A stretch of 64,000 nt of DNA from Aspidapion aeneum (lineage: Eukaryota > Arthropoda > Insecta > Coleoptera > Brentidae), in NCBI GenBank assembly GCA_963576565.1, contig OY755047.1, positions 19,971,171-20,035,170 on the forward strand, read 5' to 3'. A program made the position numbers and the translations under genes. The stretch's first letter is position 1. Each line of letters opens with the position of its first letter. Under the pieces are notes generated by a model, which saw only the letters and a list, made by a program, of their open reading frames with translations, ran no database searches and was not told the DNA's origin. Of this stretch, positions 3,001 through 62,134 are shown piece by piece.

Positions 3001-3429
3001 CCAGCCAAAGATAGTTTCAAGGGCTGAAGGTTGCCCTATTTGTCCAAGAACCCTGCCCTCCTTGAATATCTGTGCGAACAGCTCGCAACCAATAACTAGG
3101 CCCACAGGTCTAGATTTGAAATAAGATGGGTCGGCAAGTTTAAGGTTTTCCAAGTGTCTCCACTGATTATCGTTCAAAGTGAATGTAGGCATATTGGAAC
3201 ATAATTGTGGAACGACAATTGCTTCGAAATTAAGTAAAGGAGTGACCTGTCCTTGTGGCTTAATGTGACATTGAACGAGCCCTTTGGAACTAAAAGAAGA
3301 CATTTGATTTAATCCGAATATTTCAGTGGTGTAACTTCGCCTAGGAAGATTAAGACGCTGAATACACTTTTCACTGATGAATCCTGTCTGTGATCGCAAC
3401 CGTCCATAACATCGATTATGGCGGTGCAT
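1..3429 (-). pseudogene. BEL/Pao pol (RT, RNase H, integrase), broken
   Basis: A 731-codon open stretch (3429-1234) covers the end of the protease, the reverse transcriptase (YIDDILGTS, with the two catalytic Asp) and RNase H. A TAG at 1234-1236 interrupts the same frame, which reopens from 1218 for about 430 nt. Around 760-780 a deletion and frame change join this linker to the integrase. The CxxC half of the integrase zinc motif survives and the His-His half is missing. The DDE core (IDFCGPF, then WSDQGSNF, then the Glu region) reads open to position 1. At the 5' side the protease Asp-Ser/Thr-Gly triad expected before SQTGF is absent. The product would be inactive. Identification as BEL/Pao is firm. 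Confidence 0.85.
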
Positions 3430-4803
3430 AAAAGAAAGGTACCTGAAGGTCCTGAGGTATTTAATGACACATGAAGATTATTGACAGGTGATGTATGAAT
3501 GACAGGACTAGTATCTTGGCTTCCAGACTCTTGATTAGTTTCTAAGATATGAGTTAAAGTGTGGTGCCTTTTACTATTGCAAGTCCTGCATGAATATTTT
3601 GATTTGCACGTATCTACCCCATGCAAGGGATGAAAACACGCTAGACATAATTTTTTCTGCTTGACGAAAGATAGGCGATCGATAGGTGAGAGATCAAGAA
3701 ATGTTTGACATTTCGAAAGCACGCGACCTTGATTACACCGGAAACATTTTATTCCCGTACTTGAATTAGTTGAGGTGCCAGCCAGTCCTATAAAAGGCGA
3801 ATTGGATGATTTATAGGTAGGCTTTTGCCCAAAATGATTTCGCATAGAATTTGAATTTTGATAGGTAGGTTTTTGCCGAGACTGATTTTGCATAGAATTT
3901 GATTTTTGATAGGTAGACCTTTTTGGGTGCTGTTGATTGAGGAAGTGATTCCAAAACTTTACATCTTTTTTCTAGAAATTGAAAAAGTGACTGAAAAGTG
4001 TGAATTTCGGTATTAGTATTGGCGTGACTCATTTCGAAATTTGAACGCGTCGGAATATCCAATTTTTCTAACAAAATGAAAAAAATAATAAAGTCCCAAC
4101 TGTCAACGTCAAAGCTAAGTGATTTTAAAATTTCTAGGGATTCAGAAAAGGTGTCAATTAAATTACGCAATTCTTTAGCTGACTCGTTTTTTAATGTGGA
4201 GTTCATAATTGTGCTTAAAGCATCATTTGCGAGGTCTCGCTTGTTTTGATATCTATTGACTAATTTGTCGTAAGCAATTTTATAATTTTGATCAGATAAG
4301 CTAATCCCTGATATCAATTTTAAAGGCTCATCCTCTATATATGAAAATAAATATTGAAGTTTTCGGACGTTACTTAGACTTTGATTTTGATCTATAATGT
4401 TATTAAAAAGATCGAAAAAGCTTTTATCACCTCGGAATATGGGAATACCTAACTCTTTGAGTTTTGGAGTTTCAGATTCGTTTTGTCGAACATATGATCC
4501 CGAAAGGGTTGGGGCCTCAACCGGAAATATTTTAGAGTAAACCCCCTTACACGCATAAAAATATTTACGAGCTTCTGAAAGGATCGCATCCTGCGTTTTA
4601 AACTCCTCGTCGTCCGAGTCGTCTATCAACATAATGACATTATTATGTGCCAGCATGCATTTATCGAAGGTTTCATCCAAATCGGAATACCTCACTTGAA
4701 ACTCGTTTCTCGCTTTTTCGTCCTTTGCCGCGGTCTGTGAAAACACACTCGGTGATCGCAGATAAAAACCCTTGCGTTTTTGCACGGCTTTTTTGACAGA
4801 CAT
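3309..4803 (-). pseudogene. BEL/Pao gag with zinc knuckles, frameshifted
   Basis: Chosen start ATG at 4803 (MSVKKAVQ); the open frame upstream is leader sequence. The first 300 residues are a capsid-like region with the FRGDKSFF and NVRKLQYL segments seen in BEL gag. A short run of A near 3925 shifts the frame. The nucleocapsid part, with CxxC and CxxxxHxxxxC clusters (for example CFRC, CLACFHPLHGVDTC), continues in another frame at 3893-3309. Just before the knuckles is a duplicated 16-residue unit ending QKPTY plus a few residues (3818-3912), with a degenerate third copy upstream. Confidence 0.8.
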
Positions 4804-4832
4804 GATTTTACCTTTGAATGACGAAATTGTCG

Positions 4833-5106
4833 GTAAATATACAATTAACGCTAAATTAATGCTTCTGAAATAGAAAAATGACGAATTGTCGAAAATATGC
4901 ACTAATTTATCGCAATTGATGAAAATTGTTTTAAATATCGAAATGATATGGAACACATCTAATCACAGAAATGTCTGTAAATATACAATTAACGCTAAAT
5001 TAATGCTTCTGAAATAGAAAAATGACGAACTGTCGAAAATATGCACTAATTTATCGCAATTGATGAAAATTGTTTTAAATATCGAAATGATATGGAACAC
5101 ACCTAA
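4833..5106. repeat. 130-bp tandem duplication in BEL leader, period 144 bp
   Basis: Positions 4833-4962 and 4977-5106 are nearly identical. Each copy, read on the minus strand, carries a pyrimidine tract ending TTTCTATTTCAG, which looks like a splice acceptor ahead of gag. The duplication lies between the presumed LTR and the gag start. Confidence 0.85.
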
Positions 5107-8306: not shown

Positions 8307-8483
<177 letters not shown>

Positions 8484-19100: not shown

Positions 19101-22100
19101 TTTTCCCTCGTTATTTACATGTTCCAAATTCACACTTGAAAAAATTAAAACGCCACTAGAATAAGACTTCTCAAACCTACTAACTTTTTGCGTATTATTT
19201 TGTCATGTTTTTTCTCTATATGATTTTTAATAAAAACAAGTCGCGAAAGCCTGTTCTAACAGCCCTCTAGATAAAGACCTGTTAAAAGTAACAACTGTCT
19301 GCGTCTTTTTTTGTCACTTTTTTTAATAGCTTTTTTAAAATTAAAAGTGATAAGAATACAACACCAAGACAATTTTAAAAGATGGTTTGGAGTTTAGAGG
19401 CCAAAGCACTCCCGGATAGATTTTGTCGAATTGAAAAATGTCGCCAATAGGTGGCGCTGCTTCTAGTAAAATACCAAAAATATTTGGTTGACAAGCCATG
19501 CAAATCGCGTTTTAAAACTCGTCTAGAAAAGGCGCAAACCTAATGTGATTTTAACGTTGATAAAAATCGACTTAGAATTCACTTGAAAATAACGTAAAAC
19601 ATTGCTGTTTTGATTTGATAATGACGTTATTACAACGTCGTTTTTAGCAACGTTATTTTTTATAATGTTAATGAATGACCTATTAGGGAACATCCTTAAA
19701 TTACTTAACGCTAAAATTAAGAATTTTTGATCCCCCCCTCCCCCCTTGTAACGCATTTTCAAAAAAACACATTAAAAAAACATTGAGTGTAACGCAACGC
19801 CCTCCCCCCCTAGAGCGTTACGTAATTTAAAGACAGGCCCTATAAGCTTGTTTTCACATATGAAATAAACGATTTTTTCTAGCAGCTTTTAAAATCAACG
19901 TTTTTTTTTCTCACGCGTCTTTTATCTGTTAAACACGTGATTGTGCTATGTGGGTATATCCTATAATTCGCATAAAACTGGCAACATTAACTGTCTAAAA
20001 GTGCAGATTATGCCTATCACCACCAGATACATAATATTCCAGTACTATCGGTAACTGCCCATTCATGATGCAAACATGAGGACCTTGGGGTCTTTAAGCA
20101 AAAATGACCTGATTGGTTGCTTTCAAAGATATATGCATATTATTTCCATATAGTACGTATTATTGCAATACCTACAGCTTACGATGCAGAATACAAATAT
20201 ATCAAAAATATCAGTGGGTATAAGTCTATCATTTTTGCGGTGTCCTGATTGGTTATACTTTTACGCATGAATATTATTTTATTCTTGTATTCGTGACGTC
20301 AACATCGGCGTACAGTTGACAAAAACTCTATCTATGTAAATGGTGTATGGTGTCTGTGCTTTTTTCCTACCTTTATTTCTGAATGTTTGCATCAAACGCC
20401 AACCATTGTGTAAATAGGTAACAGAGAGTATTGAAATATTACGTATATGATCCCCACAGCTTCATATAAGTACTTACTTTACAGATCGTGCTCTGGAGGC
20501 ATCTATCGTTTTCTCAATGGGTTCGTTCAAGATGTTTTCTTTTGCCCCCACCACTAACACAGTATAGTACGTGCGCCAATCAATAGAGGTCATATCGAAA
20601 TTAAAATTTTTCTTATCAGTTTCGTTTAAGTAGTTCCACAGTTTTAAAGTGTTTGTGTTATCAAATTCGAAGACGTTGGAAGAAAAAAAGGAGAGTACTG
20701 AGATGAATTTTTCGATTTTTTTGTAACCTTCGCGTAACCTAAAAATATTTACTTGGTTACGTTCAATTTATATTTAAAATGACGAAAATCAAAAAAATCA
20801 TACACAATGTATTTCATTATAACTTTTAAACTGTACCACCGATTTTAATGAGACATACTGCGCTTTGCAGGAAATCACTAAACCGATTTTAATGATTGAA
20901 CTTGTTGCGCATGGCAAAACGGAGCTTCAAGGGTCAAGTTTGATCTTGTCTGCCATCTTGGATTTTAGGATGGAGGAAGAAAAGTACTCAAAAGTCCAAT
21001 TCTCTGTAAAGTAAACTTTGTAGAATCGGTGGTACCTATATAGTTTGAAAGTTATAACAAAAAACATATTGTCTGGTATTTTTTGGCTCACCCGGTCCAG
21101 AGTTTAAACTCTATGAGTGCTAATAATAGATAGTTTTTGGCCATGTTTTGCATTGCATATAACGCAAATAGTCCACAGTACACCGGTCTATTTTTTAAAT
21201 GATGACTAAGAGGCTGAATTCTCGTACATAGCTTTATTCGGCCGAGACGCCTAACTTCTTTCCCTGCGATATAATAGATAGTTTTTGGTCGTGTTTTGCA
21301 TTGCATATAACGCAAATAGTCCACAGTACACCGGTCTATTTTTTAAATGATGACTAAGAGGCTGAATTCTCGTACATAGTGTTACGGGTTCACAACGACA
21401 AATTAAAACTCGCAAATGTTGAAAACGATACGTCAATTTATTTCGACAAATTATGTACAAAAACACGCACTTAAACTTAGTAATAACATGCTAATAATTC
21501 ACTACTATAATCGGTCTATTAACTTCGTGTTAATCTCGCGACCACTACGCACGTTATCTGTGACTGACTCCTGGTGCGCGACCCCGGCCCTATATATAGG
21601 ATCGTCCATCTCTCTCGAACTTTCCGGCAGCCTTCGACGTCCGGAAAGTTCCCGCACTACCGCGACCGCAAGCCACAGACAACGCAACTAAAACCTAGAC
21701 TAAGAATACAACCTTAAGATAAATCGACCTAATACTACACTAAACCTAAATACATTCCAATTATAAAATTTAAATAACTTAAATTTGTAACACTATCCTC
21801 CTCTTCAGGTTTGATCGTCTCGATCAACATTTCCCAGGTAAGGTTTTAGTCTGTCTAGATGAACAACTTTCATCTTGGACTTCGGGCTTCTCTGGATTCG
21901 GTAGACTACATCACTAATTCTCTTAACAACTTTATAAGGCCCTTCCCATGGTGGTGTCAACTTAGGTGATCTTCCTTTCTTGCGTTGAGGATTGTATAGC
22001 CAGACTTGATCATTCTCTTTGAACCCTGAAGAGTTTGCTTTCAGGTCATATCTCGCTTTCATGCGGTCACTGGCTATTTCTATTCGCTCTCTAACCACTT

Positions 22101-25100
22101 CATGGATATCGTGCAGCTTTTGCCTTAAACGTTCGACATAGTCATTAACCTCTAAGTGTGCTTCTTCAGGTGAACCAAACATATCACATGGTAAACGCAG
22201 TTCTCTACCAAACAGGATACTAGATGGAGTAGCTCCTATCGTATTGTGAATGGCAGTTCTATAGGCCATCAAAAACAATGGAATATATTGGTCCCAATCT
22301 GTTTGGTGCTCATCAACAACTTTGCAAAGATGTTCCTCTATTGTTTTATTAAATCTTTCAACCATGCCATCTGACTGCGGATGCAAAGCAGTAGTCCGTG
22401 TTTTATGTATTCCTAAAAGGTCACAGAGATTCTGGAAGAGCTTTGATTCAAAGTTTCTTCCTTGATCTGAATGTAGTTCCAAAGGAATGCCAAATCGGCT
22501 GAAAACATCATTTACCAGAACTTCTGCAACTGTAGCGGCCTCTTGGTTAGGAAAAGCAAAAACTTCTGGCCATTTGCTAAAATAATCCATGACAACAAGG
22601 ATGTATTTGTTGCCCTTTTTAGTTTCTGGAAATGGTCCGGCCACGTCAATAGCAATGCGTTCAAATGGCAGGCCTAAGTTATATTGTTTCATTTGACCTC
22701 TGGACCTTGTATTGGGACCTTGGCTGGCTGCGCAAGTCGAACATCGGCGGCACCAGTTTTTCACATCTTGAAAGTAATTGACCCAATAAAATCGGTTTCG
22801 AATTTTGTCCATGGTTTTATTTATGCCTAGGTGCGCGCCTGATTTTCCACCATGGCATTCGGCCATTATATTGTCTACCATGCTCCTAGGAACCACTACT
22901 TGATTAATCACAGTAAGGCCATCGGCACTTTCCCAGGCACGTTTAAGGATGTTTTCTTCTACTATCAGTGAATCCCATTGTGCCCACAGTGATTTGAATA
23001 TCACCCCTTGGTTTGCGATATCTTGCCATAATGTTCGTGGCTTGTTCTCTTCTTTCAATCGCAAGATAGGTCCTACATCTTTGTCATTAAGTTGTGTGGT
23101 TCTAATCGAAGCCGACATCCATTCTTCATCTGGTTCTAACTTTATCTGGCGCACGTAGGTAATTCCTTCTTTCTGGTCAATTTTCCTGCAATGTTTACAA
23201 TCCTCGGGGCAAGGTCTTCTGGACAATGCATCTGCATTATTATGCACCCTTCCTGCTCGGTGCTTAATTTGATAATGGTATTGTTGTAGCTTTTCTATCC
23301 ATCTCGCGACTTGCCCCTCAGGTTGTTTCATTTTCATGAGCCACTGTAACGCAGCATGATCCGTTCTAATCAGAAACTCTTGTCCGTAGAGATATTTGTG
23401 AAAGTGATCTACGGATTTAACTATGGCTAGGAGCTCCTTTCTAGTAACACAATAATTTCTCTCGGGTTTGGATAGCTTTTTGCTGAAAAATTCGATGACC
23501 CGTTCTTCTCCATCTTGTACTTGGGAGAGTACTGCTCCTATGCCATCGTTGCTCGCATCAGTATCTAATATGAATTTTCCTTTTGGAATGGGATATGCAA
23601 GAATCGGACTAGAACATAATGCTGCTTTTAGTCTTCTAAATGCCTGGTCACATTCGGTATTCCATTTGTAAGAAGCTTTATCTTCTGTAAGTCTATGTAA
23701 CGGAGACGCTATTTTGGCGAATCCTTCTACAAATCGTCTGTAGTATGTACACAGACCCAAAAAGCTTCTCAATTCATGTTTGTCACGAGGTTGAGGCCAT
23801 TTTTTATTGCTTGTAGCTTCTTTTCGTCGGTATGGATGCCTTCTCGGGAAACGACGTGACCCAGGAACTCAACTTTTTCTTGGAACAGAAAACATTTCTT
23901 TGAGTTTAATTTAAGATTTGCGTTCCTGATTCTTGAGAATACTTCTCGTAAATTATCTAGATGTTCTTGAAATGATTTCCCCATTACTATGACATCATCC
24001 AAATAGACCAGGCAGGTTTTCCAAGTAAGGCCTCGTAGAACGACTTCCATTAGTCTTTCAAATGTAGCTGGGGCATTGCACAGGCCAAATGGCATCACAT
24101 TAAACTGATAAAGTCCACTTCCAGCAGAGAATGCAGTCTTCTCTTTATCTCTTTCAAAGATTCCTACTTGCCAATACCCACTTTTCAGGTCAAGAGTAGA
24201 AAACCAATATGATCCTGCCAACGTTGTTAATGTGTCGTCTATTCTTGGCAGTGGGTAACTATCTTTCTTGGTCACATCGTTAAGTTTCCTGTAGTCGACA
24301 CAAAATCTAGTACTTCCATCCTTTTTAGTGACCAACACCACAGGAGATGACCAAGGACTTGATGACTCTTCAATAACACCGTCGCTGAGCATTTTATTAA
24401 TGAGATTGTGAACTTCTTCTTGCTTGGCCATTGGTAGTCTTCTTGGGGGTTGTCTTATCGGTTGGGCATCGCCAGTGTTGATAGCATGTTGAATAAGGTT
24501 TGTGCGTCCCGAACTACTCCTAGTTTCGAAGATATTACTTTGTTCTTCTATAAACTCTCTCGCTTTACTATATTCTTCTGGAGTGAGATGTTGCCAAGTT
24601 GACTCAAATTGCTGAAGTACCTCCATTGGTAACTTGCTTGTATCCTCGGAAGTTGGCTCTTCACATCTTGTTACTTTCTGTACTGGTTCAAATAATGCTA
24701 CCACCTCCCCCTTATTAATTTTGACACTATTTGGGAAAATATTGGCGACTCTAATCGGGATGTCTTTATCGGTTTTAACTAGTGATTTTGCAACGAGGTA
24801 GGTGTTGGGTGTGTTTTGTTGGCTTATGAGTCCGACGCAGCTTGATGTTTTACTTTCTAGCCTCCCAAAAATTATGGTCTCACTGTTACCGACTAGTCTT
24901 GTTGTGCATACTGCCACCACCTTTATTGGTTCTTTATTGATGTGACTATTTGACAAAATGAACTCTTCGTTCCCAAATCTTAGGGTATTAAGTTTATTAT
25001 CAAACGCAAATCCATGTTTACTTATCAGGTCCATTCCCAAAATAAATTCGTCTTCTATGTCTGCAACTAATACCGAGTGACGAATCTTCAACCTCCCCAG

Positions 25101-28100
25101 CTGTAGGTCTATGTCTGTCTGCCCCAACACGTCGGCGGATTCTCCAGTCACAGTCTTAAGTGTTATTTTCTTTTCTGTTGGTCGAATTTTATATCTCGTT
25201 GCAATTTTGAACTTAAGCAATGATATGGCAGCACCAGTGTCTACTGTTATATTAACTTTTCTTCCATTAATAAGTCCGTCGATGTTAAGACTGTCAGCAG
25301 TATGTTTTAAGCTCTTGATAGAGTAAATTTTGGGGGCTAAATTTCCATTAGCCAACACCCCCCTCTGCGTTGACTAGTTTTAGTTTTTTCTGATCTCTTC
25401 TTCGGTACTCTGTCCCACTAGATGGTGAGCGAGACCTCATTTGGACACGACAATCGCGTTGAATATGCCCTGTACGTCCGCATCTAAAACACTTTACATT
25501 TGGATGGGATCGTCTACTTTCATTCAAAGAATCAATCTTCTCTATCAGTGATTGAAACAGTTGGTTTAGCGTTTTTAAGTTGACCTCATCTCCAGTGCTC
25601 ATTTCTTCTCCCTCCTGAATTGAAACACCTCTTACTTTTGGCCTGGACATATTATTTGATGATTCAATTTCAAGGGCTCGAATCAACACTTCACTGCTGT
25701 TATGGAAGCGTTCTCGACGAAGTAACTTTGCTAAGTCCGTGTCTCGTAATCCGTTAATAAAGCGATCTACCGTGAAGGGATCTCTGTAATTTTCTGGCAT
25801 TTCTGGGTAAGCTAAATACATCAGCCTCCTGATATCTGCTTCATACTCTTGCAATGATTCTCCTGGCCTTTGTTGACGAATATTTAATTCTGACCAATGT
25901 AAATTTCGCAAGTGTTCGTCTCCATACCTTCTTTCTAACGCTGCCACTAGAGCGTTATAATTCTGTTTTTGCTCGACTGGAATGGACCGTAAAAGTCCCA
26001 GAGCAGGTTCTCGTAGAGCTACTAACAATGCTCTAGCTTTTTCCTCATCATCCCAACCATTTGCAGCAGCGGCAGCTTCAAACTGTTGTTTATAAGTAGA
26101 CCAGGAAGACGTACCATCGAAATTTGGAGGCTTAATGTTTTGGTTGGAATTCACAACACATCCCTGAGTTTTCATTTTGTTGTGTTCTTTTTGGAGCTGT
26201 ATAAGCTGTTTTGACACATCCTGGAGCTTTTCTTCCACTGTTTGAAAAACTTCTTCTCTTACATTCTGTAGCTTGGTCGCCACTTTTTCTTCAACATTCT
26301 GCAATTTGTTTTGTACCGTTTCTTCTACATTCTGCAATTGGTTTTGTACCTTTTCTTCTACATTATGCATTCTTTGAGTTATTTCTTCCTTAACATCTTC
26401 AGTTGCTGCTTTGAACTCTTCTCTCAGCTGTTCGGAGTTGCTCTTTATCTGATCGAAGTTTTCTTGCATGCCATCTAATGTGTGTCTCATATCGTTCTGG
26501 TTTTGTTCAATAGTGTGTTTCATGTCGTCCATGGTGTGTTTCATATCGCCCTGGTTTTGTTCAATGGTCTGTTTCATGTCGTTCTGGTTTTGAGCCATTT
26601 GAGCTGCTAGAGCCTGCATCATTTTAGTTAAATCTTCCATCTTGGCCGATCTTTGTCTAGTAAGCATCAACTTCGTGATAAATCACTTAAAACGTGTATT
26701 TTAGGGCTACAAAGTGAATGTCGAAGTCGGTTTTTCAATATCTCGTCCAATTCTTAAATAGAACCTAATGGAATGTTCTGGAATATACTGGTAAATGCTA
26801 CTCTTTCTGCTACTAGGCAAATGTAGAAGTCACTTTTTGATTATCTCTTTTGGTTCTCGAATAGACCGTCGTCGAATGTTATGGAATATTCTAGAAATAA
26901 TTTCTAATTCTTACTTTTAAAATAACTAAGCTACTGTCGAAGTCGGTATTTGTATATCTTTTCTAGTTTTTGAATAGAACGTCGTAGAATGTTATGGAAT
27001 CTTCTAGAAATTCTTTCTAATTCTTTCTTTTGAAATAACTAAACTAATGTCGAAATCGGTATTTGTATATCTCTTCTAGTTTTTGAATAGAACGTCGTAG
27101 AATGTTATGGAATCTTCTAGAAATTCTTTTTAGATCTTACTTTTGAAATTACTAAGCTAATGTCGAAGTCTCTTTTTGGATATTTCTTCTGGTTTTCGAA
27201 TAGAGCGTCGTAGAAAGTGATGGAATGTTCTAGAAATTCTTTCTGATTCTTACTTTTAAAATTACTAATCTAATGTCGAAGTCGGTATTTGTATATCTCT
27301 TCTAGTTTTTGAATAGAACGTCGTAGAATGTTATAGAATATTCTAGAAAATCTCTCTAATTATCAATTTTTGGATTGTAAAGTTAATGTCCAAGTCGGTT
27401 CTTAAATATCTCTTTTAGTTTTTGAATAAAACAATATCGAACTTCTTCGAATATTCTAGAAAAATCACTTACTGTTTCTCTGTCCAATTGTCCTATCCGG
27501 TGATACTGTATAAGGATAGTCTTTGCACTATTTATTTCTTTTAATCTCACTTCTGACACCAATTGTTACGGGTTCACAACGACAAATTAAAACTCGCAAA
27601 TGTTGAAAACGATACGTCAATTTATTTCGACAAATTATGTACAAAAACACGCACTTAAACTTAGTAATAACTTGCTAATAATTCACTACTATAATCGGTC
27701 TATTAACTTCGTGTTAATCTCGCGACCACTACGCACATCTGTGACTGACTCCTGGTGCGCGACCCCGGCCCTATATATAGGATCGTCCATCTCTCTCGAA
27801 CTTTCCGGCAGCCTTCGACGTCCGGAAAGTTCCCGCACTACCGCGACCGCAAGCCACAGACAACGCAACTAAAACCTAGACTAAGAATACAACCTTAAGA
27901 TAAATCGACCTAATACTACACTAAACCTAAATACATTCCAATTATAGCTTAGCTTTATTCGGCCGAGACGCCTAACTTCTTTCCCTGCGAAACTTTTTGA
28001 ATGCGATTCCTAAAGCTACATTTCTAATCGTGTTTGCGGGCTGACACGAACTCCAGCACGGGAGTCGTCACGGACTAGGCCATTTCTAATCGTGTAGCGA

Positions 28101-31100: not shown

Positions 31101-34100
31101 TTTTGTCACAGAGAAATACGAAAATTCCTTAAAAAGTTGGATACAAACAAGGCAATGGGTCCAGATGGCATTCCCGCGATAGTACTTAAAAATTGTGCTA
31201 ACGAACTCACCCCAACTTTCGCTAAATAATTCAATTTATCTTACAGGCAAGGAGTATATCCATCAGCATGGAATTCTACCGCAGTACAACCTATTCCAAA
31301 GAAAGGAAAAAAAACAGATCCGTTAAACTATAGACCAATTGCTCTACTTCCGGTGATATCAAAAGTAATGGAAAGAGTTGTGAACAATCACCTAACCAAG
31401 TACTTGGAAAAGTACAAAATTATCAACGACAAGCAATACGGATTTCGAAAATATAGGTCAACTGGCGATTTACTTACATACGTCACTCACTTATGGCAAA
31501 AAGCGATTGAGTTACGGGGCGAAACAAGAACAATTGCCTTAGATATATCTAAAGCATTCGATAAAGTCTGGCATGAAAATCTGCTCAACAAGCTCAAAGC
31601 AATGGGATTGTCGCCGAAACTTTGCACTTGGTTTGAAAGTTACCTTAAGGATAGATCCATTTATGTTGCACTGGATGGCCGGAACTCCAACTCTTACCAA
31701 ATAAATGCTGGTGTGCCACAGGGAGCAATCCTTTCGCCAACACTTTTTCTGATTTACATAAATGACCTCATAGATAAAACAGTAAATCCACTTTATTGCT
31801 TTGTAGATGATGGCAATGTAGTCTCCTCAGTCATACCACCCACTCAGTGTCTATCCGCACGTGAATTCCATCATCTTAGACTAACTCAAATATCGCAGAT
31901 AAATAACGACCTGGAGATAATAGAGGACTGGGGCAACAAAAACCTTGTACAGTTCAACGCGCAGAAAACCCAAGCAGCCCTGTTTTCAAAAAAGACCAGC
32001 ACCGGCGAGCCAAACATCATGCTATCTGGAAGTGCTGTTACATTGCAGAGCCAGTTGAACATCTTAGGAGTCACTGCAGAGACCAACATGTCTTGGCACA
32101 GTCACGTGGCAGATATAGCTAAAAGGGCGTCCCAAAAGCTTGGGGTGCTATTTCGTACAAGACATCTGTATACACCAAGTCAACTGCTGACACTCTACAA
32201 AGCCCAGATTCGACCAACTATGGAGTACTGCTCACATATATGGAGTGCGGCACCCAAACATACCTTAATGCTTTTGAACACCGTGCAAAAACGAGCTATC
32301 AAGCTGATCAATGACCCCGCACTTACCCGTAGCTTGGATTGTCTCGAACATCGAAGAACTGTGGGCGATCTATCTCTCTTCTACAGGTATTATCACGGAA
32401 AATGCTCTGAAGAGCTGGCACGTATGATCCCCACGGGAGTAGCACCTACTAGGCGAACACGTCAAACAGACGGTAACCATTAATTTACTGTCAAAATAGA
32501 GGCACCAAGAACCTCATTATATCAGAATTCATATCTCTGGAGAACAGCATCGCTGTGGAATAAACTCCCTGCGACAGTTTTCCCTGCAGGTTACAACCTA
32601 AACCGTTTCAAAACCAACACACATCAACATTTCCGCGCACTGGCCGCTTCTCGAGCGTGATAGGGATCTCCTTGCGAGTGCGCTTAACCGTAAAAAAAAA
32701 AAACAAAGCGGGGAGAACTGTTGAGTGAACCCTAAGTTTAAATCTGACTTTTCTAGTAAATTAAGTTAAAACAAAATTGCTAATTAGTCTTACTGACTAG
32801 ATTGTAATACAATAAACACAGTGTGTTTGACAAATAAAAAAAAACTATTTTAAAATTATAAATTACGAGATAAAAAAATTTCCATTAAAGAATTAACCGG
32901 TAATTTTTTTTTGTAGCCTAAAAAATGTGTTTGAATGTTAATGGCAATATTGTTCTACAAATCTTATGCTTGGTTTAGTCAGTCCGATGCATGAAGTATG
33001 TCTACGCCTGTGCACTCTGTTTTTGCAGGGGAAAAAATTGTTTTGCCTGTTAGTAATGACTTAAAAAATAGACCGGTGTACTGTGGACTATTTGCGTTAT
33101 ATGCCATTTCATATTTTTGCAACTTGCCATTTCTAAAGCCTTACATAGGTCATTTTTGTCAAATATCAAGGCAACTTCACTAAGTGCTTAAATCAATCTG
33201 CAACAAACAATAATATATTTCTTATTGCCATATTATGATGTTTTTTATTATCCCACGATAGTCAGAACGAAAGGGTAATTACAAACATTTCCATTCTGAA
33301 CTACTTCTTTATGAGAAGCAAAATTTAAAACAATACATAGAAAGTCTTACATTTGACACTAAACTTAAATATTAAAATTGAAAATAGAATGTTTCCTTCA
33401 AAGTAAGATTATCTGAAATGGTTTGCTTTTAATAATAAAGTGCTACTTTATTAATATTGTAGTAGAAGAATTTCAAAGGTTTTTGTCAGATATCTCAAAT
33501 AACAAAAGACCAAATGCAAGAGTAGCAAAAACATATTTCCTATTACCCGTGTTTCTTATTCCCCCATCTTCCCCTATGTCAAATAGATGGGTTCAGCTCA
33601 TTGAGTTGTATAAGGCCATTGAATAAGTCGATGGTTCCGCTCAACAATGGTGTTACCTGTGCAGCCAGCGCCACCAAATGGCACGGAATCTAATAGAAGC
33701 TCGCTAAAACACAATCGCGCACGTTCTACGTACTTCGCAAAACTTATCTTAACCGTCCGTGAGTTCGCGGCGTTCTACGGAAGCCGTTAACGACATGTGA
33801 CGTTCTAATGTCAACAGTGTCAAATTGCTTTAGTTGTCGGCCATTTTTGGCACGACCAAAAACAATCTATTTTACTGATTCATAGAGACGTGAGTAGAAC
33901 AAAATTATTTTAAAAAAGTAGTGGAGACTTACATAGGTTTTTTGCCACTACAAATCAGGGCATAATCCAAAACATAAGCTGGAATAACGTGAAATAAAAA
34001 TTTTGCAAGTTTATACCAGTATTCATTGGTAGTTTGGTGATAGAACGGGTCTGACAAGGTCTGCAAACCACCTACTCTGCGTATAACATTGTCCGAAATA

Positions 34101-37100
34101 TCGCACATGTCTTTCCAGCTGTGAGGGTTTTGAGGTGAAGAGACGCAGTTGTATATGGGTACATTATTTAGATTCCTAAAAGGTAAAACGAGTATATAAG
34201 TTTGGACAATAGGGCGAATGAGATAACAATTTAACTCCCAAATTGACGATAAAGATTTCTACATAATTGTTTAGCGTAGTCCCAGAAAAATTAAACATTT
34301 TAACAAAGATACTACTATGTCGGTTTAGAACGTTTTTCTACGTTGTCCGACGCCTATTCTCCACCTCCTTCGATCCTGACAATCATCTTCTGTCAGGTTT
34401 TTTTTACTCTGGCCCTCTTTTTCTAGCTTTAAGCTTTTTAATACTATTCTTTATCATTTCTTTTTGGATTATTACTTTTTCTCCATGTACTTCTATGTCT
34501 CTCCTCGGAGAGGCTGACAGATATTCGGGTCTCGTTCCCTACAGTAGTCCCATGTATTCCATTTTTCTTGTTTGATGATCTGGATGTTTACTTTTTCTTT
34601 GATTGAGATTTTTACTGTTAAAAAAATTCCAGAACTCTGCCTACCTCCTTCGTGTGTATTTATGTCGTGGCATTACTGGCATTTGCGCTCGAACAATTCA
34701 TTTTTTTCTGTGTGTATTTTTGACGTTTAAAAAACCTGACCTTGCTACCTGGGTTCTTGTTTATGATAATCATTCTCTATTAGATCTCTAAGAATCCTAC
34801 TCTACAATCTACTTAGAGTACTGATTACTGAAAATCCTCTGTTATTGTTGCAATCCAGCTGGTTTCCTTTTTTACGTATTGAGGATATGAATGCAATTTT
34901 CCAATCATTAGGTACTGGATGTCCGTGTGTGTATCAAATTTCTTAGCTGTCTTCTGGTTTCCCTGTAGATTTGTAGATCTCTTTGCTCTTTAGTACTGAG
35001 CCATTCCAAGTATGTGAGTTTTTTCTCTTTGACCATTTACCACCACCACCTATATTTCCTCCGTCCACCATCTTATTGTTATTTCTATTACCTTGATGTC
35101 CAACAGCTTCGTTGCTTGCTTCCTTCAAGCTTTTTATTAAGTTTGCACATATCTCTTCAAATGAGTGTTGGGTGTTCTGTGTTTATTAATTATTTTTTCA
35201 TCTAATCGGTTCTGATACAATCTTTGCGTACTTTCGATTTCTCGACTTCTAAAGTTGTATTTTTGATTGTCTTCGATGCATTCTAGGTTTTCATTTTCTC
35301 CAATACTTTCATCCCTATTGGCTTTTCTTAAAGGGAGTAATATTTTTGCTTTTACCAGATGGTGGTCAGATCCACAGGTAACACCACGAATTGCTCGCAC
35401 ATCATACCACTTTAATTGCGAGTGTTGTCCACCTATAGCATAAATAATCAATGATTGATTTAAGATTTCTTGTTGGCTGAATCCAGGTTTAACAAAGATA
35501 ACGATAAATAATAGAAAAACAAAGCTCGTTAAGGTAACCTATTGTTACGGGTTCTCCACAACAATTAAAACTCGCAAACGTCAAAAATGATATGTCAATT
35601 TACTTCGACAATTATGTACAAAAACACGCACTTAAACTTACTAATAACTTGCTGATAATTCACTACTATAATCGGTCTATTAACTTCGTGTTAATATCTC
35701 ACGACCACTACAGTACGTTATCTGTGACTGACTGCCTGGTGCGCGACCCCGGCCCTATATATAGGGTCGTCCATCTCTCCCGAACTTTCCGGCAGCCTTC
35801 GACATCCGGAAAGTTCTCGTATTAATGCGACCGCAAGTCACAGATAACGCAACTAAAACCTAGACTAAGAATACAACCATAAAATACGTCAACCTAATAC
35901 TACACTAAACCTAAATAAATTCTAACTATAAAATAACTTAAATTTCTAACACTATCCTCCTCTTCAGGTTTGATCGTCTCGATCAACATTTCCCAGGTAA
36001 GGTTTTAGTCTGTCTAGATGAACAACTTTCATCTTGGACTTCGGGCTTCTCTGTATTCGGTAGACTACATCATTAATTCTCTTAACAACTTTATAAGGTC
36101 CTTCCCATGGTGGTGTCAACTTAGGTGATCTTCCTTTCTTGCGTTGAGGATTGTATAGCCAGACTTGATCATTCTCTTTAAACCCTGAAGAGTTTGCTTT
36201 CAGGTCATATCTCGCTTTCATCCGGTCACTGGCTATTTCTATTCGCTCTCTAACCACCTCATGGATATCGTGCAGCTTTTGCCTTAAACGTTCGACATAA
36301 TCATTAACCTCTAGGCGTTCTTCTTCAGGTGAACCAAAGATGATATCACATGGTAAACGCAGTTCTCTACAAAACAGGATACTAGATGGAGTAGCTCCTG
36401 TCGTATTGTGTATGGCGGTTCTGTAGGCCATCAAAAACAATGGAATATATTGGTCCCAATCTGTTTGGTGCTCATCAACAACTTTGCAAAGATGTTCTTC
36501 TATTGTTTTATTAAATCCTTCAACCATACCATCTGACTGCGGATGTAAAGCAGTAGTTCGTGTTTTTTGTATTACTAAAAGGTCACAGAGATTCTGGAAA
36601 AGCTTTGATTCAAAGTTCCTCCCTTGATCTGAATGTAGTTCCAAAGGAATGCCAAATCTGCTGAAAACATCATTTACCAGAACTTCTGCAACTGTAGTGG
36701 CTTCTTGGTTAGGCAAAGCAAAAACTTCTGGCCATTTACTAAAGTAATCCATGACATGTATGTATTTGTTGCCCTTTTTAGTTTCTGGAAATGGTCCGGC
36801 CACGTCAATAGCAATGCGTTCAAATGGCAGGCCTAAGTTATATTGTTTCATTTGACCTCTGGACCTTGTATTGGGACCTTGGCTGGCTGCGCAAGTCGAA
36901 CATCGGCGGCACCAGTTTTTCACATCTTGAAAGTAATTGACCCAATAAAATCGGTTTCGAATTTTGTCCATAGTTTTATTTATGCCTAGGTGTGCGCCTG
37001 ATTTTCCACCATGGCATTCGGCCATTAATCACAGTAAGGCCATCGGCACTTTCCCAGGCACGTTTAAGTATTCCCATTGCGCCCACAGTGATTTGAATAT

Positions 37101-40100: not shown

Positions 40101-43100
40101 AGCGGCGGCAGCTTCAAATTGTTGTTTGTAGGTGGACCAGGAAGACGTTCCTTCGAAATTTGGTCATGGTCTGACAAACTTCTTCCCTAACATTCTGTAC
40201 CTTTTCTTCAACATTTTGTACCTTTTCTTCTACATTCTGCAATTTATTTTGTACCTTTTGTTCCACACTATGCATTCTTTGAGTTATTTCTTCCTTAAGA
40301 TCTTCGGTTGCAGTCTTAAACTCTTCTCTCAGCTGTTCGGAGTTGCTCTTTATTTGAAGTTTTCCTGCATGTCGTTCTGGTTTTGTTCCATGGTCTGCTT
40401 CATGTCGTTCTGGTTTTGTTCAATGGTCTGTCTTATATCGTTCTGGTTTTGAGCCATTTAAGCTGCTAGAGCCTGCATCATTTTAGTTAGATCTTCCATC
40501 TTTGCCGATCCTTGTCTAGTAAGCATCAACTTCGTGATAAATCACTTAAAACGTTTATTTTAGGGCTATAAAGCGAATGTCGAAGTTGGTTTTTTAATAT
40601 CTCTTCCAATTCTTAAATAGAACTGAATGGAATGTTCTGGAATATACTGGTAAATGTTACTCTTTCTGCTACTAGACAAATGTAGAAGTCTCTTTTTGAT
40701 TATCTCTTTTGGTTCTCGAATAGACCGTCGTAGAATGTTATGGAATATTCTAGAAATAATTTCTAATTCTTACTTTTAAAATAACTAAGCTACTGTCGAA
40801 GTCGGTTTTTATTTATCTCCTCTGGTTTTCGAATAGAACGTCGTAGAATGTTATAGAATATTCTAGAAAATCTTGCTAATTCTTACTTTTGAAATAACTA
40901 AACTAATGTCGAAGTCGGTATTTGTATATCTCTTCTAGTTTTTGAATAGAACGTCGTAGAATGTTATGGAATCTTCTAGAAATTCTTTTTAATTCTTACT
41001 TTTACAATTACTAAGCTAATGTCGAAGTCGCTTTTTGGATATTTGTGGGAATAGAACGTCGTAGAAAGTGATAGAATATTCTAGAAAATCTCTCTAATTA
41101 TCAATTTTTGGACTGTAATATTAATGTCGAAGTCGGTTGTCTCTCTTTTGGTTTTTGAATAAAACAATATCGAACTTCTTCGAATATTCTGGAAAAATCA
41201 CTTACTGTTCTGTCCAATTGTCCTAGCCGGTGGTACTATGTAAGGGTAGTCTTTGCACTATTCAATTCTGAATATTCTGGCAAAATTACTTACTGTTCTT
41301 CTTTTCAATTGTCCTAGCTGGTGCTACTATGTAAGGATAGTCTTTGCACTATTTATTTCTTTTAATCTCACTTCTGACACCAATTGTTACGGGTTCTCCA
41401 CAACAATTAAAACTCGCAAACGTCAAAAATGATATGTCAATTTATTTCGACAATTATGTACAAAAACACGCACTTAAACTTACTAATAACTTGCTGATAA
41501 TCCACTACTATAATCGGTCTATTAACTTCGTGTTAATATCTCACGACCACTATAGTACGTTATCTGTGACTGACTGCCTGGTGCGCGACCCCGGCCCTAT
41601 ATATAGGGTCGTCCATCTCTCCCGAACTTTCCGGCAGCCTTCGACGTCCGGAAAGTTCTCGTATTAATGCGACCGCAAGTTACAGATAACGCAACTAAAA
41701 CCTAGACTAAGAATACAACCATAAAATACGTCAACCTAATACTACACTAAACCTAAATAAATTCTAACTATAAAATAACTTAAATTTCTAACACTATAAT
41801 GCACATGTTTTCCCTACTTGCCTTTTATCTGTCGGGTTTGGAAAAGAAATGGAAATTGCTAGACGAAAATACCAACTAAATTTTATATCTGTTAATTTGT
41901 CATTCTCTATTGTTTTTTAGCGTCGGCCTAGGCAAATTAAAAATTTTACGAAAGATAAAGATTAAACATAGAAACTTCTACTTTTTCGTGATACTAAACA
42001 GTAGTCAGAACTGAAAAGTAACGAATTTTGAGATCACCACATTTCTACCATAAGAAAGTAGGAAAGCCTTTGGAGCATGTAGCGGCGACTATAATTGTTA
42101 GTTGGGAGTGGCGTCACTATTAATTCCGGCTCTTATAATATACAATGGCCTAATTTTGAAAGAAGACAGCTATTCTTATAATGCGAAACTGTCAATATAG
42201 TGTCCGGCACAATTAGTGCCTGGCACTATTGCAATAAGTCCCCATTATTTACGGCACAGTCCCTTTTTCTTGCCGGGACTCGGAGTTCTAGCACAGTGTA
42301 GTACGATACCACACAAGCTTAGTTTTCAAGAAAATTGAATAAAGCAAATAAAAAATTTTAAAAACTGTAATTTAAAAAAAAATAACCTCAAAATGAGTAA
42401 GCCCTGGTTCGGTTCGGTTCGGTTATTGATTTTTTTTGTTATAATTAAATGATAGAAGCAAAGCTATGTTCCCTACAATGTCCGTTTTCCTTTATACTTG
42501 TTATTTAGAAAAAGCTGCTATGGAGTGATTTATAACGAAGTCGGCAAAGGTAATGTCGCATCTTGTTGTAATTAAAAAAAAAATAAACGCAATAGGGCCA
42601 ATTTAATAAAAGAAATATGACTATAAAATAATAAGGTATTCCATAATATCCTCCTTTCCCTACTTGTCTTTCTTTGTTGGCAGTCGTATTGAAAGGGAAA
42701 AAATGGAAATTGCTTAACGAAAACACCAATGTATTGAAAATTTTATTTCTAATTTGTCTTTCTTTATTGTTATTTAGCATTAGCCTAGGAAAACTTAAAT
42801 TTTTAACATAAAGAAAGATAAAAAATACATAAACAAACCTCACTTATTGAATATTATTTGTCGTGTCTAAAACAAAGCAGTAAAGTTAAGTACCCTGTAT
42901 TTCCCCTTTTTCTCTATACTTGCCGCTCTTTAGCAATTCGAAAAGAACCCGCAACATAATTCTTTATAATGAAGGTGGCAGGCGTGATGTCGCAATTTTT
43001 TGTTTTCATTAAAAAAGCAATAAATCCAAGGGAGTCATCTGATAAAAGAACAAAGCCTATAAAATAAGGAAACATCATGCCCCTTTCCCCTACTTGCATT

Positions 43101-46100: not shown

Positions 46101-49100
46101 ATACTAAAAGATCGCAGATTAAGACTGGAAGAGGTAACTGAGGCTGCGGACATATCAAAAGAACGAGTTCACCATATTTTATATGAAGTTTTAGGTATGA
46201 GAAAACTATCCGCCCGATGGGCGCCAGATCAAAAGTTCGTGTGTCTAACCATTTCAGAGGAGAATTTGGCATTGTTTAGACGTGATTCAGGGGACTTTTT
46301 GCGTAGATTTATTACGCTTGTCACAAGTCCGCTCTTGTAATGGCTAAAATCCACCAGCTAGGCTTTGAACTGTTAAACCATCCACCTTATTCGCCAGACC
46401 TAGCCCCGTCAGACATTTATTTGTTTCCAAACCTAAAAAAATGACTTGCTGGAAAAAAAAAATTCCTGAGATTTAGAAGTCATTGCTGCTACAAACGCCT
46501 ATTTTGACGAGTTGGATCACCACTCTTCTATATACAGGTCGTGGTGGTTGGATAAATCAGACTTTAGTGATGGCATCAAATCAGTTGAACATCTTTGGGC
46601 CAAATGTGTTACCTTACAAGGGGACTATGTAGAAAAATAAATTATTATTTAGTCACTATGGTGTTGCGTTCTATGTTAGGCCGGAAACTTTTCATTCCAT
46701 CCTCGTAGTTTGTAATACAATAAACACAGTTTATTTGATAAATAAAAAAATAAAAAAGTCAGTCCTCTCGTTGTTTGATAAGAGAATTTTTAATTAAAAA
46801 AAAAAACAAGTAAACTCCAACTAATTTGTACCAACATTCCTCCACTTACCCAGGAGTAATTTTTTCCAACGTTTCGTCCGGCAAATTGTCCGTCAGTAGT
46901 CGTAGCTGTTCCACAGTAGCTGTCGGCTTATAAAATTCTTCTTTTATATATTTCCTATCGCAGTTCGAGTAAGCTGTGCTGATATGAGTAAAAACTTCGA
47001 GGTTTTTGCAGTTTTTTGCCAGTTTTATGATTTCTACTGCGCCCAAAACGTTGCAGTTTACTGCGCTTCTTAAGGGTTCGTCAAATCGCACAGTGGCAGC
47101 GGCATGGTAAATTATATTTATCTAATAAAATAAAATCAAATATCTAACTATACTTCACTGATAAAAAGAAAGAAACATGAAATGCTGTCAAATGCTCAGA
47201 AAAAAAAATTGATTTAGGTTATAGAATACCTTCCCTGTAAAGGCTTTCTTTTATTTCTAATAAAAAAAATAGTTTAAACTAAGAAAACTTAAGTATTATA
47301 TAGGGTGTTCTCACAGTTGAGTCATTTATTTTAACAGGTTGTAGAACTCGTAAAAATAAGTAATTTTACCAAAAATCATTCATATAAACGTTGCAGATTA
47401 AAGAAGTGATTAACATTTCGAAAAATGTAAAATTTAAAAACTTTTCGTGTACAAACGATATGCTGCGGCTGCATTTTGTTGGCACTCCCCGTAAGTTAAT
47501 ATTATGCCCACTAGTTCATTGTTTTCATATACGTATGCCATTTTTATCGCATAAAATGCTCAAAAAACAAAAATATCACGCACTTTAGCGAATTATTTAG
47601 TATTGGTCAAATTGAAATTCTCACTGAAAACCGTACAATGAATGAATAAATGATGAGTAATTTGTATTCTAGAAAAAAATGAGGCATACCCAGTATCACC
47701 AGTAAACAAAATATTGATAAAAATCATCGAATAAATAACATATATTTCTTCGATGTAGTCAGGTCTTACAGTTTTTAAGTTTACCATTTTCAGAATTGTT
47801 AATAACTTCTTTATTTTGCAACTTTCATATAGATGATTTTTGCTACAATTACTTATTTTTACAAGTTCTACAACCTGTTAAAATAAATGACTCAACTTTG
47901 AGAACACCCTGTATAAAATCGCATTCTCATAGATATCTTTAATCACTTACTTTGTCTAGTAACTCATCTCTATCGTCTAAACTTAAACCAAGTTCTGGCT
48001 GGGATAAATCTCCCGTTATGGCAACGACGTTTTTCCTAAAGTTTGGACGTATTTTGGCAAGAGGATGAAAGACCTAAATTAAAACAAGAATAATAGTGGG
48101 TAGGTACCTGCTATACAGGGTGTCTCAATTCAATTCTTTATTTGAAAAATTGCGTCGAGACAGAAGGTAGAGGGCCTCGCTACATTTTGACAGTAGTTTT
48201 GGAAAACAAATCCGTCAGGCCTCTAGTACCTTATAGTGGGAAATTATCTTTCACTATAACTTATTCGAACTATACCCCAAATTTTAATGGAATTGGTTGT
48301 GCCTTAGGTGGCGGACAGAGAATAAAACTTGACCCAATAAAGAGTTGTTTTTTTTTACAAGCTTTTATTTAGCTTCAGATGTTCTGTCTAACTATCTAAC
48401 TATCCAACTAACTATCTATCAAATTTTGTGAAGCGTTTTTGACACACTTCCCATTATCCGATTTGGATGAAATTTGGTACACACATAGTGGTCCCATGAC
48501 AATACAACATTAAGAAAAAAATATCCTCCCACCCCTACCCCCACCCCTTCTATAGAAAAATATGTTTTTGACACACTTCCCGTTATCCAATTTGGATAAA
48601 ATTTGGTATACACATAGTGGTCCGATGATAATACAACAATAAGAAAAAAATATCCTGCCACCCCTACCCCCACCACCTTCCATAGAAAAATCCAGTCCAC
48701 ACATCCCGTTATCCGATTTGGATGAAATTTGGTATACATATAGTGATCCGATGACAATACAATATTAAGAAAGAAATATCCTCCCACCTCTACCCCCACC
48801 CCCTCTATAGAAAATATGTTTTTTACATACTTCCCGTTATCCGATTTGGATAAAAGTTGGTATACAGATAGTGCTCCGATGATAATACAACAATAAGAAA
48901 AAAATATCCTCCCAAAAAATTTAAGTCACAAGCTTTTATAAAATGCACTAAAAATTAAGAAATAATTTTCTTACATTCTAATATTATCATAATAATAAAA
49001 GCGATGGCCGACTGATGGAAATTTTGACGATGTTAGCACGATAAGGTATCCGTATCAATTAAATATCACTATTTGCAAGAATCAATCTAGCAGAAAAATG

Positions 49101-51799: not shown

Positions 51800-53805
51800 G
51801 CCAATCCACGACTGGTTTCGGCCTTTTTGGGCCATCCTCATAGTTCAGGCAAGATACGGGAAAATCCACTTTCTAGAAGCATTTTATATTACTTTTTGGC
51901 AAATGGGCAATTCCCCCTATTTTGACCCCGCTGAATCCGAATATCCCTGTTGCCAACTCGAAATATTGACATGGGCTGAGATATTCAAGATGGCGGCCAA
52001 AATGGCGGCGGAATTTTAAATTGCCGCTGGAAAGCCCAAATTGTCACAGGTGTACATTCAAAATATATATTTGTATAATTAAAAAATAATAACATATTAT
52101 TTTTTTTAAATGGTTGCACAAACCTCCAAAAACCCCCCCAGACCCCCCAAAATCTGAAAGTTTGAGGTTTTTTAAAATTTTCTTAAAAACTAAGCTTCTA
52201 AGAGAAAAATGTATAATATACTTTATTGTAGACAATAAAATTCCCTTTTCAACATGGTATAACTTAATAAAGTTAGGCTAATAACAAGCTCTCCAGCGGC
52301 GTCCGTTAATTGAAGTAATTAAAAAAAGTTGAAAATTTTTTTTTCCAGGATTTATTTAATTTTTTTAAAAACTAATATCTACAGAAAACCATGTGAAACT
52401 CGGTGAGGTTTGACTTATTGCAAACTCTCCAGCGACGTCCGTCCATGGGGGTGATTTCAACAAATCATTAAAAATAACATGTTTTTCATACGTTTTATTT
52501 AATTTTCTTAAAAACCAAACTCTTTATCAAAAAATGAGTTTTATACTTCGTCATAGCCAATAAAATTTCCTTTCAAACGATGTATAACAAAGTGGAAGTT
52601 ATTTTATATTTACCGCTCCAGTAGTGGTCTTAATTTTAAGAAATCATTTAAGATCAATCCAAACTAATCAATTTTGTGTCTTATTAGCTTTTCGGTGGAT
52701 AATAAAGAGCGGCGGATAAAAGGTCGAAAGTACAAAAGGTCAAAAAAATAAGGTCGAAAATACAAAAGGTCGAAAGTACAAAAGGTCGAAAGTACAAAAG
52801 GTCGAAAGTACAAAAGATCGAAAGTACGGCCGCGGGTCCACATCGACTGGACAGGTCAATTCGACTTGATACGGTAAATTTGTATTTTTAATATTTTGTT
52901 TTGTCGATTTTTTTCGACCTACAAATACTTTCGACCTTTTATGGCTTTGGCGGCGGGCCCGATAATAAAATGTCCTTTTAAACAGTGTGTCACAAAATGT
53001 GACCCATAGTATAGAAAACTCTCCAGAACCATCTGTTAATTGCAAAAATTACCAAAAAATATTATTTTTGTTACGGGTTTCATTCAATTTACGAACCTTT
53101 TTGAAGTATTTATCATAACATTAACCTCACTTTGTAATAAATCATTTAAAAAGAAATTGTCTTATCCTCAATAAAGAATAAAGGTACATTTTTTTTCTGA
53201 AAATCTTAGGTAGAAAAGATATTTAAATATGCATGAGAAACTGATTATTTCAGTTATTTTTGAAAATAAGTTTATATTAGTACGCCCCTGCAGCCCTAAA
53301 TATTGCAACAACCCGACATTTTAATAAAGTTTTTAAAAGAAAATGTTATGTTCTATAATAAAGTATACTATATATATTTTTTCCTAAAAAGTGCAGTTTT
53401 TGAGAAAATTTTGAAAAACCTATAATAAACATGTTTTTTCTAAATAATCCCTATTTACGTACGCCACTGAAGAGCTACTTGCTTTTCCTAACCTTATTGG
53501 CCAATACATCGTTGGAAAGGGAATTTTATTCTCCACAAAAAACTGTTCTTTGCAATTTTTGATAAAAAGGTTAGTTTTTAGTTAGAAAATTGCATAAAAC
53601 TGAAAAAAAACAGGTTTTTGGGGGTTTGGGGGGGGGATTTTCTCCGTCCCTGTCGATTTTTCGAGTTGGCAACAGAGATATTCGGATTCAGCGGGGTCAA
53701 ATTAGGGGGAAATGGTCTGTTGCCAAAAAGTAATATGATTTGCTTCTAGACCGAAAACGGAAAGCCTTTTAAAATAATATGCTCTGACTACATCCTCAGG
53801 TCAGA
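51800..53805. mobile_element. TIR element of about 2 kb with ends of about 170 bp
   Basis: The left end (51808-51975) and right end (53650-53805) are reverse complements, sharing TTTGACCCCGCTGAATCCGA, GTTGCCAACTCGAAA and ACTTTTTGGCAA. Inside are irregular tandem units with CTCTCCAGCGGCGTCCGT at about 52290, 52430 and 53020. No transposase was recognised. Confidence 0.75.
52715..52945. repeat. MITE with 18-bp AGGTCGAAAGTACAAA repeats, nested
   Basis: Five to six AGGTCGAAAGTACAAA units at 52720-52825 and an inverted TACTTTCGACCTTTT at about 52930-52945. It sits inside the 51.8-53.8 kb element. Confidence 0.7.
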
Positions 53806-58560: not shown

Positions 58561-58875
58561 TTTATGTTACCTTATCTTTAGAGATATTTGGAAAAAATAT
58601 ATTTTTTCATTGTTAAAAAAACATTTATTTTTTAATGTTAGAAAAACATTTCTTTTCCACTGTTAAAAGTCAATATTTTTTTAACGTTCGAAAAACACTT
58701 TAGAAAAACGTTATAAAAACATAAGATTACTTTTCTAACGTCAGAAAACGAGTTATTAAGCTTCTTTTTCACTATGAATATGACGTTAGAACTAACATCC
58801 AACCTAAAGTTATATTTTTAAATTATACATTATTTTGACATTATTAAAACGTTTTTGTGTTTAGTGAGTTTTCTA

Positions 58876-62129: not shown

Positions 62130-62134
62130 GATAT

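Follow-up and report, generated by a model that had tools for sequence, protein, structure and literature searches.

A tandem array of perfect heat-shock elements in the untranslated leader of a beetle Ty3/gypsy retrotransposon: a candidate HSF-bound enhancer

The stretch of beetle DNA analysed here, a window of 64 kb, contains two copies (A and B) of a Ty3/gypsy LTR retrotransposon, both on the minus strand, and each carries in its untranslated leader a tandem array of perfect heat-shock elements (HSEs). From motif content, position and conservation it appears probable that this array is an enhancer bound by heat shock factor (HSF) and paired with weaker promoter-proximal sites in the LTR. 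The features on which this reading is based are collected in Table 1.

The element and its relatives

In the sense direction copy A consists of an LTR, a primer binding site (PBS), an 878-nt leader containing the array, gag, protease-reverse transcriptase (PR-RT), RNase H-integrase and a second LTR. Pfam matches on the minus strand follow the order zf-CCHC, aspartic protease, RVT_1, RT_RNaseH and rve, and this succession of gag, protease, reverse transcriptase, RNase H and integrase is that of Ty3/gypsy elements. Self-comparison paired the LTRs at 21380 and 27564 (copy A) and at 35537 and 41379 (copy B), with an identity within each copy of 99.0% and 98.6% respectively. Between the copies the LTRs are approximately 89% identical and the two longest matching stretches show 92.7% and 94.1% identity. 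Copy B, with LTRs of 406 bp, has the termini TGTTAC..CTAACA (plus strand), in agreement with the TG..CA ends of LTR retrotransposons, and is flanked on both sides by a 4-bp target-site duplication, ATAG. A polypurine tract, GAAGAGGAGGATAG, precedes the 3' LTR of copy B and with the PBS of copy A makes up the pair of sites characteristic of such elements. No tRNA genes were found in the window.

Both copies appear to be defective in protein coding, since the reverse transcriptase and RNase H frames differ in copy A and the pol region of copy B is split over at least four ORFs (counting ORFs of at least 120 aa). The RNase H-integrase ORF of copy A runs to 21805, beside the 3' LTR (21792), so that there is no room for an env gene, and the env downstream of pol that marks the errantiviruses (gypsy proper) is absent from this copy. 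Beyond the 5' LTR of copy A, from 27947 onward, no similarity to the LTR is seen; a deletion or rearrangement after insertion probably removed the outer end of this LTR. Directly outside the 3' LTR of the same copy is a 109-bp direct duplication (21123-21379, 98% identical). At its N-terminal end gag contains tandem repeats of 33 and 54 bp within the coding sequence (26286-26582, minus strand), and Pfam gives apolipoprotein-like matches below its cut-off.

Among the 120 gag matches listed of 189, those with species names are from beetles with one exception. The named beetles among these listed matches are Aromia, Exocentrus, Zophobas, Coccinella, Diabrotica, Leptinotarsa and Gonioctena, and the single non-beetle label is a Rickettsia endosymbiont of a weevil. 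Pol is less taxon-specific than gag: its closest match overall has 73% identity and its best named relative is from the ladybird Henosepilachna (64% identity), followed at approximately 50-62% by relatives from a pseudoscorpion, butterflies, a fly and spiders. Taken together, these relatives point to a beetle as the probable host. When viral contigs were searched, the PR-RT query gave no match, a pol alignment gave 35 pattern matches and 0 confirmed relatives, and the three-unit HSE array pattern gave 0 matches. Against bacterial genome contigs the pol alignment yielded 2 confirmed relatives among 31 candidates, at 46% and 30% identity. Both come from mollusc-symbiont assemblies, we infer as contaminating host elements, and neither contains a perfect HSE.

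Other mobile or repetitive sequences are present in the window. These are BEL/Pao-type pieces at 1234-4956 and 60173-63964 (both minus strand), with Pfam matches to Peptidase_A17, DUF1759 and DUF5641; a reverse transcriptase ORF at 31353-32483 (plus strand) that matches RVT_1 only and is perhaps of LINE type; a (CA)88 microsatellite (8308-8483) and tandem arrays of 129, 16 and 117 bp (48435-48914, 52718-52827 and 57601-57950); and long inverted repeats, 85-96% identical (54284-54996 against 55227-55978, and 57263-57525 against 58604-58866), which are possibly non-autonomous DNA transposons.

Table 1. Positions in the window of the parts of copies A and B, with the basis of each assignment.
Feature	Position	Strand	Basis or remark
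5' LTR, copy A	27564..27946	-	99% identity to 21380-21765; U3 5' end absent relative to 3' LTR
3' LTR, copy A	21380..21792	-	BLAST self-comparison
5' LTR, copy B	41385..41790	-	HSE-like sites inside 41619-41663
3' LTR, copy B	35543..35948	-	ATAG duplication at both element ends
PBS TGGTGTCAGAAGTGAGA, presumably of tRNA-Leu type	27545..27561	-	adjoins 5' LTR of copy A
gag from first ATG, with CCHC zinc knuckle	25348..26667	-	ORF and Pfam zf-CCHC
Protease and reverse transcriptase ORF	23769..25358	-	Pfam gag-asp_proteas, RVT_1
RNase H and integrase ORF	21805..23772	-	Pfam RT_RNaseH, rve, Integrase_H2C2; frame differs from PR-RT
HSE-like site 1 GAAnnTTCnnGAc, about -86	27820..27832	-	LTR of copy A
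HSE-like site 2 GAAnnTTCnnGAg, about -59	27793..27805	-	LTR of copy A
TATA box TATATATA	27772..27779	-	LTR of copy A
TCAGTC, taken to be initiator-like (Inr consensus); putative start 27746	27743..27748	-	31 bases past TATA box
AATAAA, candidate polyadenylation signal	27621..27626	-	LTR of copy A
HSE array, copy A, units of ~113 bp, untranslated leader	26700..27470	-	TRF, motif scan, BLAST self-matches
Perfect HSE, unit 1, blocks 1-3, 10-bp register shift	26771..26783	.	motif scan and alignment
Perfect HSE, unit 2, blocks 3-5	26884..26896	.	motif scan and alignment
Perfect HSE, unit 3	26997..27009	.	motif scan and alignment
Perfect HSE, unit 4	27110..27122	.	motif scan and alignment
Perfect HSE, unit 5	27223..27235	.	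motif scan and alignment
Perfect HSE, unit 6	27336..27348	.	motif scan and alignment
Perfect HSE, unit 7, nearest the promoter, ~+291	27449..27461	.	motif scan and alignment
HSE array, copy B, six perfect HSEs	40560..41194	-	sites at 40630, 40743, 40856, 40969, 41074, 41182
Extra one-mismatch HSE GAATATTCTGGCA	41270..41282	.	duplicated tail of copy B leader

The heat-shock element array

The perfect motif GAAnnTTCnnGAA occurs 13 times on the two strands of the window, with seven occurrences in copy A, six in copy B and none elsewhere. In dinucleotide shuffles of the window the expectation was 1.29 (sd 1.13, maximum 5) and a count of 13 was reached in 0 of 100, although the seven sites of copy A are not independent since they sit in tandem repeats. 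A first-pass annotation of this DNA had put the chance frequency of the motif at once per 260 kb; this figure holds for equal base frequencies, and in this DNA of 36% GC 1.29 are expected per 64 kb on both strands. For a single consensus unit the observed match to the five-block element (14 of 15 bases) was reached in 1 of 3000 shuffles.

Homology-anchored alignment revealed in each unit a five-block element, GAA-TTa-GAA-TTC-GAA, with 5-base phasing and a variable block 2, and all 13 aligned array units contain at least three contiguous inverted nGAAn blocks. True 113-bp repeats are formed by units 2-7, where blocks 3-5 are perfect, and TRF reported a period of 113 at 26812-27432 in copy A and at 40679-41099 in copy B. 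Unit 1 (26771; 40630 in copy B) is divergent, reading GAA-TTC-GAA-TaC-GtA, and here blocks 1-3 are perfect in both copies. The seven perfect sites of copy A had been described in the first-pass annotation as lying at exact 113-bp intervals, and as a description of the sites this is accurate, but the homologous pitch of units 1 and 2 is 103 bp, so that the 113-bp step from the first site to the second is made up of this pitch plus a 10-bp (two-block) register shift. In copy B successive sites are separated by 113, 113, 113, 105 and 108 bp, and exact 113-bp spacing is therefore not required. About one unit appears to have been lost from copy B, whose fifth unit resembles a fusion of A5 and A6.

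The array lies between the LTR promoter and gag of this minus-strand element, as had been claimed; counted from the putative start, the sites of copy A are at approximately +290 to +970.

Conservation of the motif

The 13 units of copies A and B were compared in a homology-anchored alignment of 52 gap-free columns from which the tail site at 41270 was excluded. Units were defined by motif matches; in copy A they follow directly on one another and all were included. The mean pairwise difference is 0.047 for the 12 bases of blocks 1, 3, 4 and 5, the omission of block 2 from this figure having been chosen after the alignment was seen, whereas the nn spacers have 0.284 and the flanks 0.262. Only 0.08% of 200,000 random sets of 12 columns were as low as 0.047. 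Block 2 is not conserved, and with it the mean difference over the 15 block bases becomes 0.106. Seven of the nine core bases are invariant across the 13 units. When the test was confined to units A2-A7, a weaker test of invariance, all nine were invariant as against 53 of 113 columns overall (P 0.0007). The constraint is not purely on the HSE since a flanking AATA at -14 to -11 is also invariant.

A second comparison used the five clear orthologous pairs of units, leaving out A5, A6 and B5. Between copies A and B these pairs show 0 differences in 60 HSE bases and 39 in 447 other bases (Fisher P 0.006), with 2 of 20 spacer positions differing. Copy B keeps six perfect sites in the face of these 39 differences, and the earlier identification of the motif as a canonical HSE is supported. 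The first-pass annotation had also named conservation of the motif no better than that of the rest of the unit as an outcome that would count against its reading; within these two genomic copies, whose units share ancestry, the motif is the better conserved.

Two other comparisons were set aside. A motif-anchored invariance test (9/9, hypergeometric 3e-7) misaligned unit 1 and overstated the divergence elsewhere, and a global alignment of the two leaders, in which 1 of 63 core bases, 1 of 21 bases of the upstream GAA and 93 of 763 bases elsewhere differ, mispaired the last units.

These data bear on whether the array could be a neutral tandem repeat, in which an HSE present by chance in the founding unit persists through recent duplication. 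A perfect triplet did arise in 13 of 3000 shuffles of a single unit, and BLAST gives an identity to unit A3 of 85-94% for units A4-A6. The outer units count against this picture: outside the element A1 differs from the consensus at 17 of 64 sites and A7 at 31 of 88, but their HSEs are perfect, and under a neutral star model the probability of such retention is 0.07 for A1 and 0.03 for A7. For all seven units of copy A to hold a perfect HSE the same model, which assumes independent units and takes the consensus as ancestral, gives approximately 1e-5 when started from the consensus. Together with the absence of HSE differences among the orthologous pairs, this makes a purely neutral origin the least probable of the explanations considered. 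The perfect triplet at shifted blocks in unit 1 fits selection for HSF binding as opposed to selection for one fixed sequence.

The LTR promoter

Just upstream of the TATA box each LTR contains a pair of GAAnnTTC sites that was absent from the first-pass annotation. In 4 of 4 LTRs these two sites, which precede both the TATA box and the initiator, have a third block with one mismatch, and a perfect three-block site within the LTR itself, as in ONSEN, was found in none of the four LTRs examined. Windows that resemble an HSE with no more than one mismatch number four in every one of the four LTRs (two sites in each of two phases), compared to a mean of 0.087 in 300 shuffles of one LTR, although the two sites are not independent events since they are an inverted repeat of each other. 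The 5' LTRs of A and B are identical over the 35 bp spanning the sites, as against 32 differences in 381 positions for the whole LTR, and the 3' LTR of copy B has one change within this span. The core promoter next to the sites is conserved as well, and the conservation of the sites may reflect that of the whole core promoter.

The leader as DNA and as RNA

The tandem arrangement of protein-binding sites between the PBS and gag is shared with the Su(Hw) array of Drosophila gypsy, and on the strength of this position the first-pass annotation had raised the idea of an insulator. The array would then be a boundary, with an insulator protein brought in by the HSE-like motif. TGCATA, the core of Su(Hw) sites, occurs 0 times on either strand of both leaders, and the insulator idea is not supported in that form; CGATA, the motif of BEAF, occurs once per leader and not once per unit. 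The BEAF motif is enriched at HSF-bound fly promoters (PMC3021535), but the conserved bases of the array are the bases of the HSE, and positional resemblance alone says little. We regard an insulator function as highly improbable.

In the sense direction no ATG is found between the PBS region and the gag ATG, either in the 878 nt of copy A or in the 834 nt of copy B, whereas shuffled leaders contain a mean of 4.4 and 4.6 respectively (P 0.0035 and 0.005, 2000 shuffles). A leader without an upstream ATG fits a scanned 5' UTR, and the array is therefore probably inside the gag message. Counted over 26645-27560 in copy A there is 1 sense ATG (the gag start) against 18 antisense, and over 40502-41375 in copy B 1 against 15. 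Protein coding in the array was considered and rejected, since each sense frame contains 15-24 stops and the longest open stretch among them is 59 codons.

The packaging signals of retroelements are usually located ahead of gag. The repeat might accordingly act as leader RNA, in packaging, dimerisation or translation control, with the palindromic TTCTAGAA being kept for its role in RNA; both the placement of the array in the presumed transcript ahead of gag and the lack of upstream AUGs in the sense leader are consistent with this. The leader of copy A does not, however, fold unusually well (z +1.55, with 19 of 20 shuffles folding at least as well) and it has no Rfam match at E up to 1. In several units a C or G in the spacer interrupts the GAATATTC palindrome but leaves the GAA and TTC blocks intact, and unit 1 holds its HSE at a shifted place. 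An RNA role for the repeat thus seems quite improbable, if marginally less so than an insulator.

Proposed mechanism

If the array is an HSF-bound enhancer, as we favour, heat or other proteotoxic stress would cause the host HSF to trimerise and to bind cooperatively at the LTR sites close to the promoter and at the array downstream. Bound HSF would then raise transcription from the LTR, and the element would be expressed when HSF is active. The number of sites could be tuned by tandem duplication, and the array could confer a heat response on neighbouring host genes. The location of the array downstream of the promoter, unlike the arrangement known from Hsp promoters, counts against this reading. 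A fuller model is that of two-part heat-shock control, with Hsp-like HSEs in the LTR and an array in the leader, the unit number shifting by duplication and deletion while the sites are kept by selection; judged from the sequence, this model is put forward as tentative, and we hold it somewhat more doubtful than not. If it is true, a strong enhancer, portable and heat-responsive, would be set down next to host genes with each new insertion.

The binding preference of HSF is known from the fly, where ChIP has shown that the factor occupies inverted AGAAN triplets in vivo (PMC2936546). The same study reports that most strong motifs are unbound, with less than 15% (107/815) occupied (PMC2936546). 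In a beetle, knock-down of HSF lowered two Hsp transcripts (PMC7522579).

It is also conceivable that HSF binds the array mainly in a developmental capacity. Germ-line HSF, active at normal temperature, would then drive the element during oogenesis or early embryogenesis, and its induction by heat would be a by-product. Inheritance of a retrotransposon needs expression in the germ line, which counts in favour of such a role. HSF is reported to be required in Drosophila oogenesis and early larval development, and HSF sites are predicted in the LTRs of Drosophila copia and gypsy (PMC10745035). The sequence separates neither the developmental role nor heat induction from the other, but high-affinity arrays of multiple sites would suit a strong inducible response, and a primarily developmental role is considered unlikely.

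Comparison with known systems

HSF-driven heat activation of retrotransposons has been well worked out in plants, and nematode Helitrons are known to supply heat-shock sites. The plant elements ONSEN (COPIA78), TERESTRA, COPIA37 and ROMANIAT5 likewise have nGAAn blocks in their regulatory DNA (PMC5059998, PMC3907296). The heat-responsive element of ONSEN is bound by HSFA2, and in an hsfa2 mutant the activation of ONSEN falls severely (PMC3907296). Among Brassicaceae COPIA elements perfect 3P and 4P elements correlate with up to approximately 100- and 1000-fold heat induction, and the ONSEN site itself is reported to have arisen by duplication of a proto-site (PMC5059998). The ONSEN group are plant Ty1/copia elements with sites in the LTR, whereas the beetle element is an animal Ty3/gypsy with six to seven perfect sites in the leader and two imperfect sites in the LTR; its Ty3/gypsy domain order and its named gag relatives, mostly beetles among those listed, place it outside that plant lineage.

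In Caenorhabditis, Helitrons provide another case of an animal mobile element with dense overlapping clusters of HSEs, bound by HSF-1 and conferring a heat response on genes nearby (PMC6927752). These elements contain 61.4% of C. elegans HSEs (PMC6927752). Helitrons are, however, DNA transposons and, as far as that report is drawn on here, placement in a leader beside their own promoter is not described (PMC6927752); the clusters of six to seven sites found in the beetle are outside any Helitron.

Among insect LTR elements, Drosophila copia and gypsy likewise have HSF sites in their LTRs, although as single predicted matches, and transcripts of Tirant are increased under chronic heat (PMC10745035). 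In the portion of that survey used here the 5' UTR listing includes no HSF site among the entries listed and no array of perfect HSEs is described (PMC10745035). The element described here differs from Drosophila gypsy in the absence of Su(Hw) cores, in the motif that is repeated and in having no env gene. The untranslated leader region (ULR) of copia is reported in older work to carry tandem enhancer repeats, and we know of no HSE array in it. This region, between the LTR and the first gene, is bound by MOF, MSL-1 and MSL-3 and is likewise a leader bound by regulatory proteins, here of chromatin (PMC2443393), but copia is a Ty1/copia element and in the beetle binding is predicted.

A literature search, mainly of titles and abstracts and with few subscription journals, found no leader HSE array in an animal LTR retrotransposon, which is weak evidence of novelty. 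The comparison suggests that what may be new here is the coupling of an animal Ty3/gypsy element to HSF, and the use of a leader array rather than of the LTR alone. An array of apparently selected perfect HSEs in a beetle would be a clean case tying a retrotransposon to the heat shock response and, if this is true, it would suggest how periods of heat could set off transposition in insects and rewire the genes close by.
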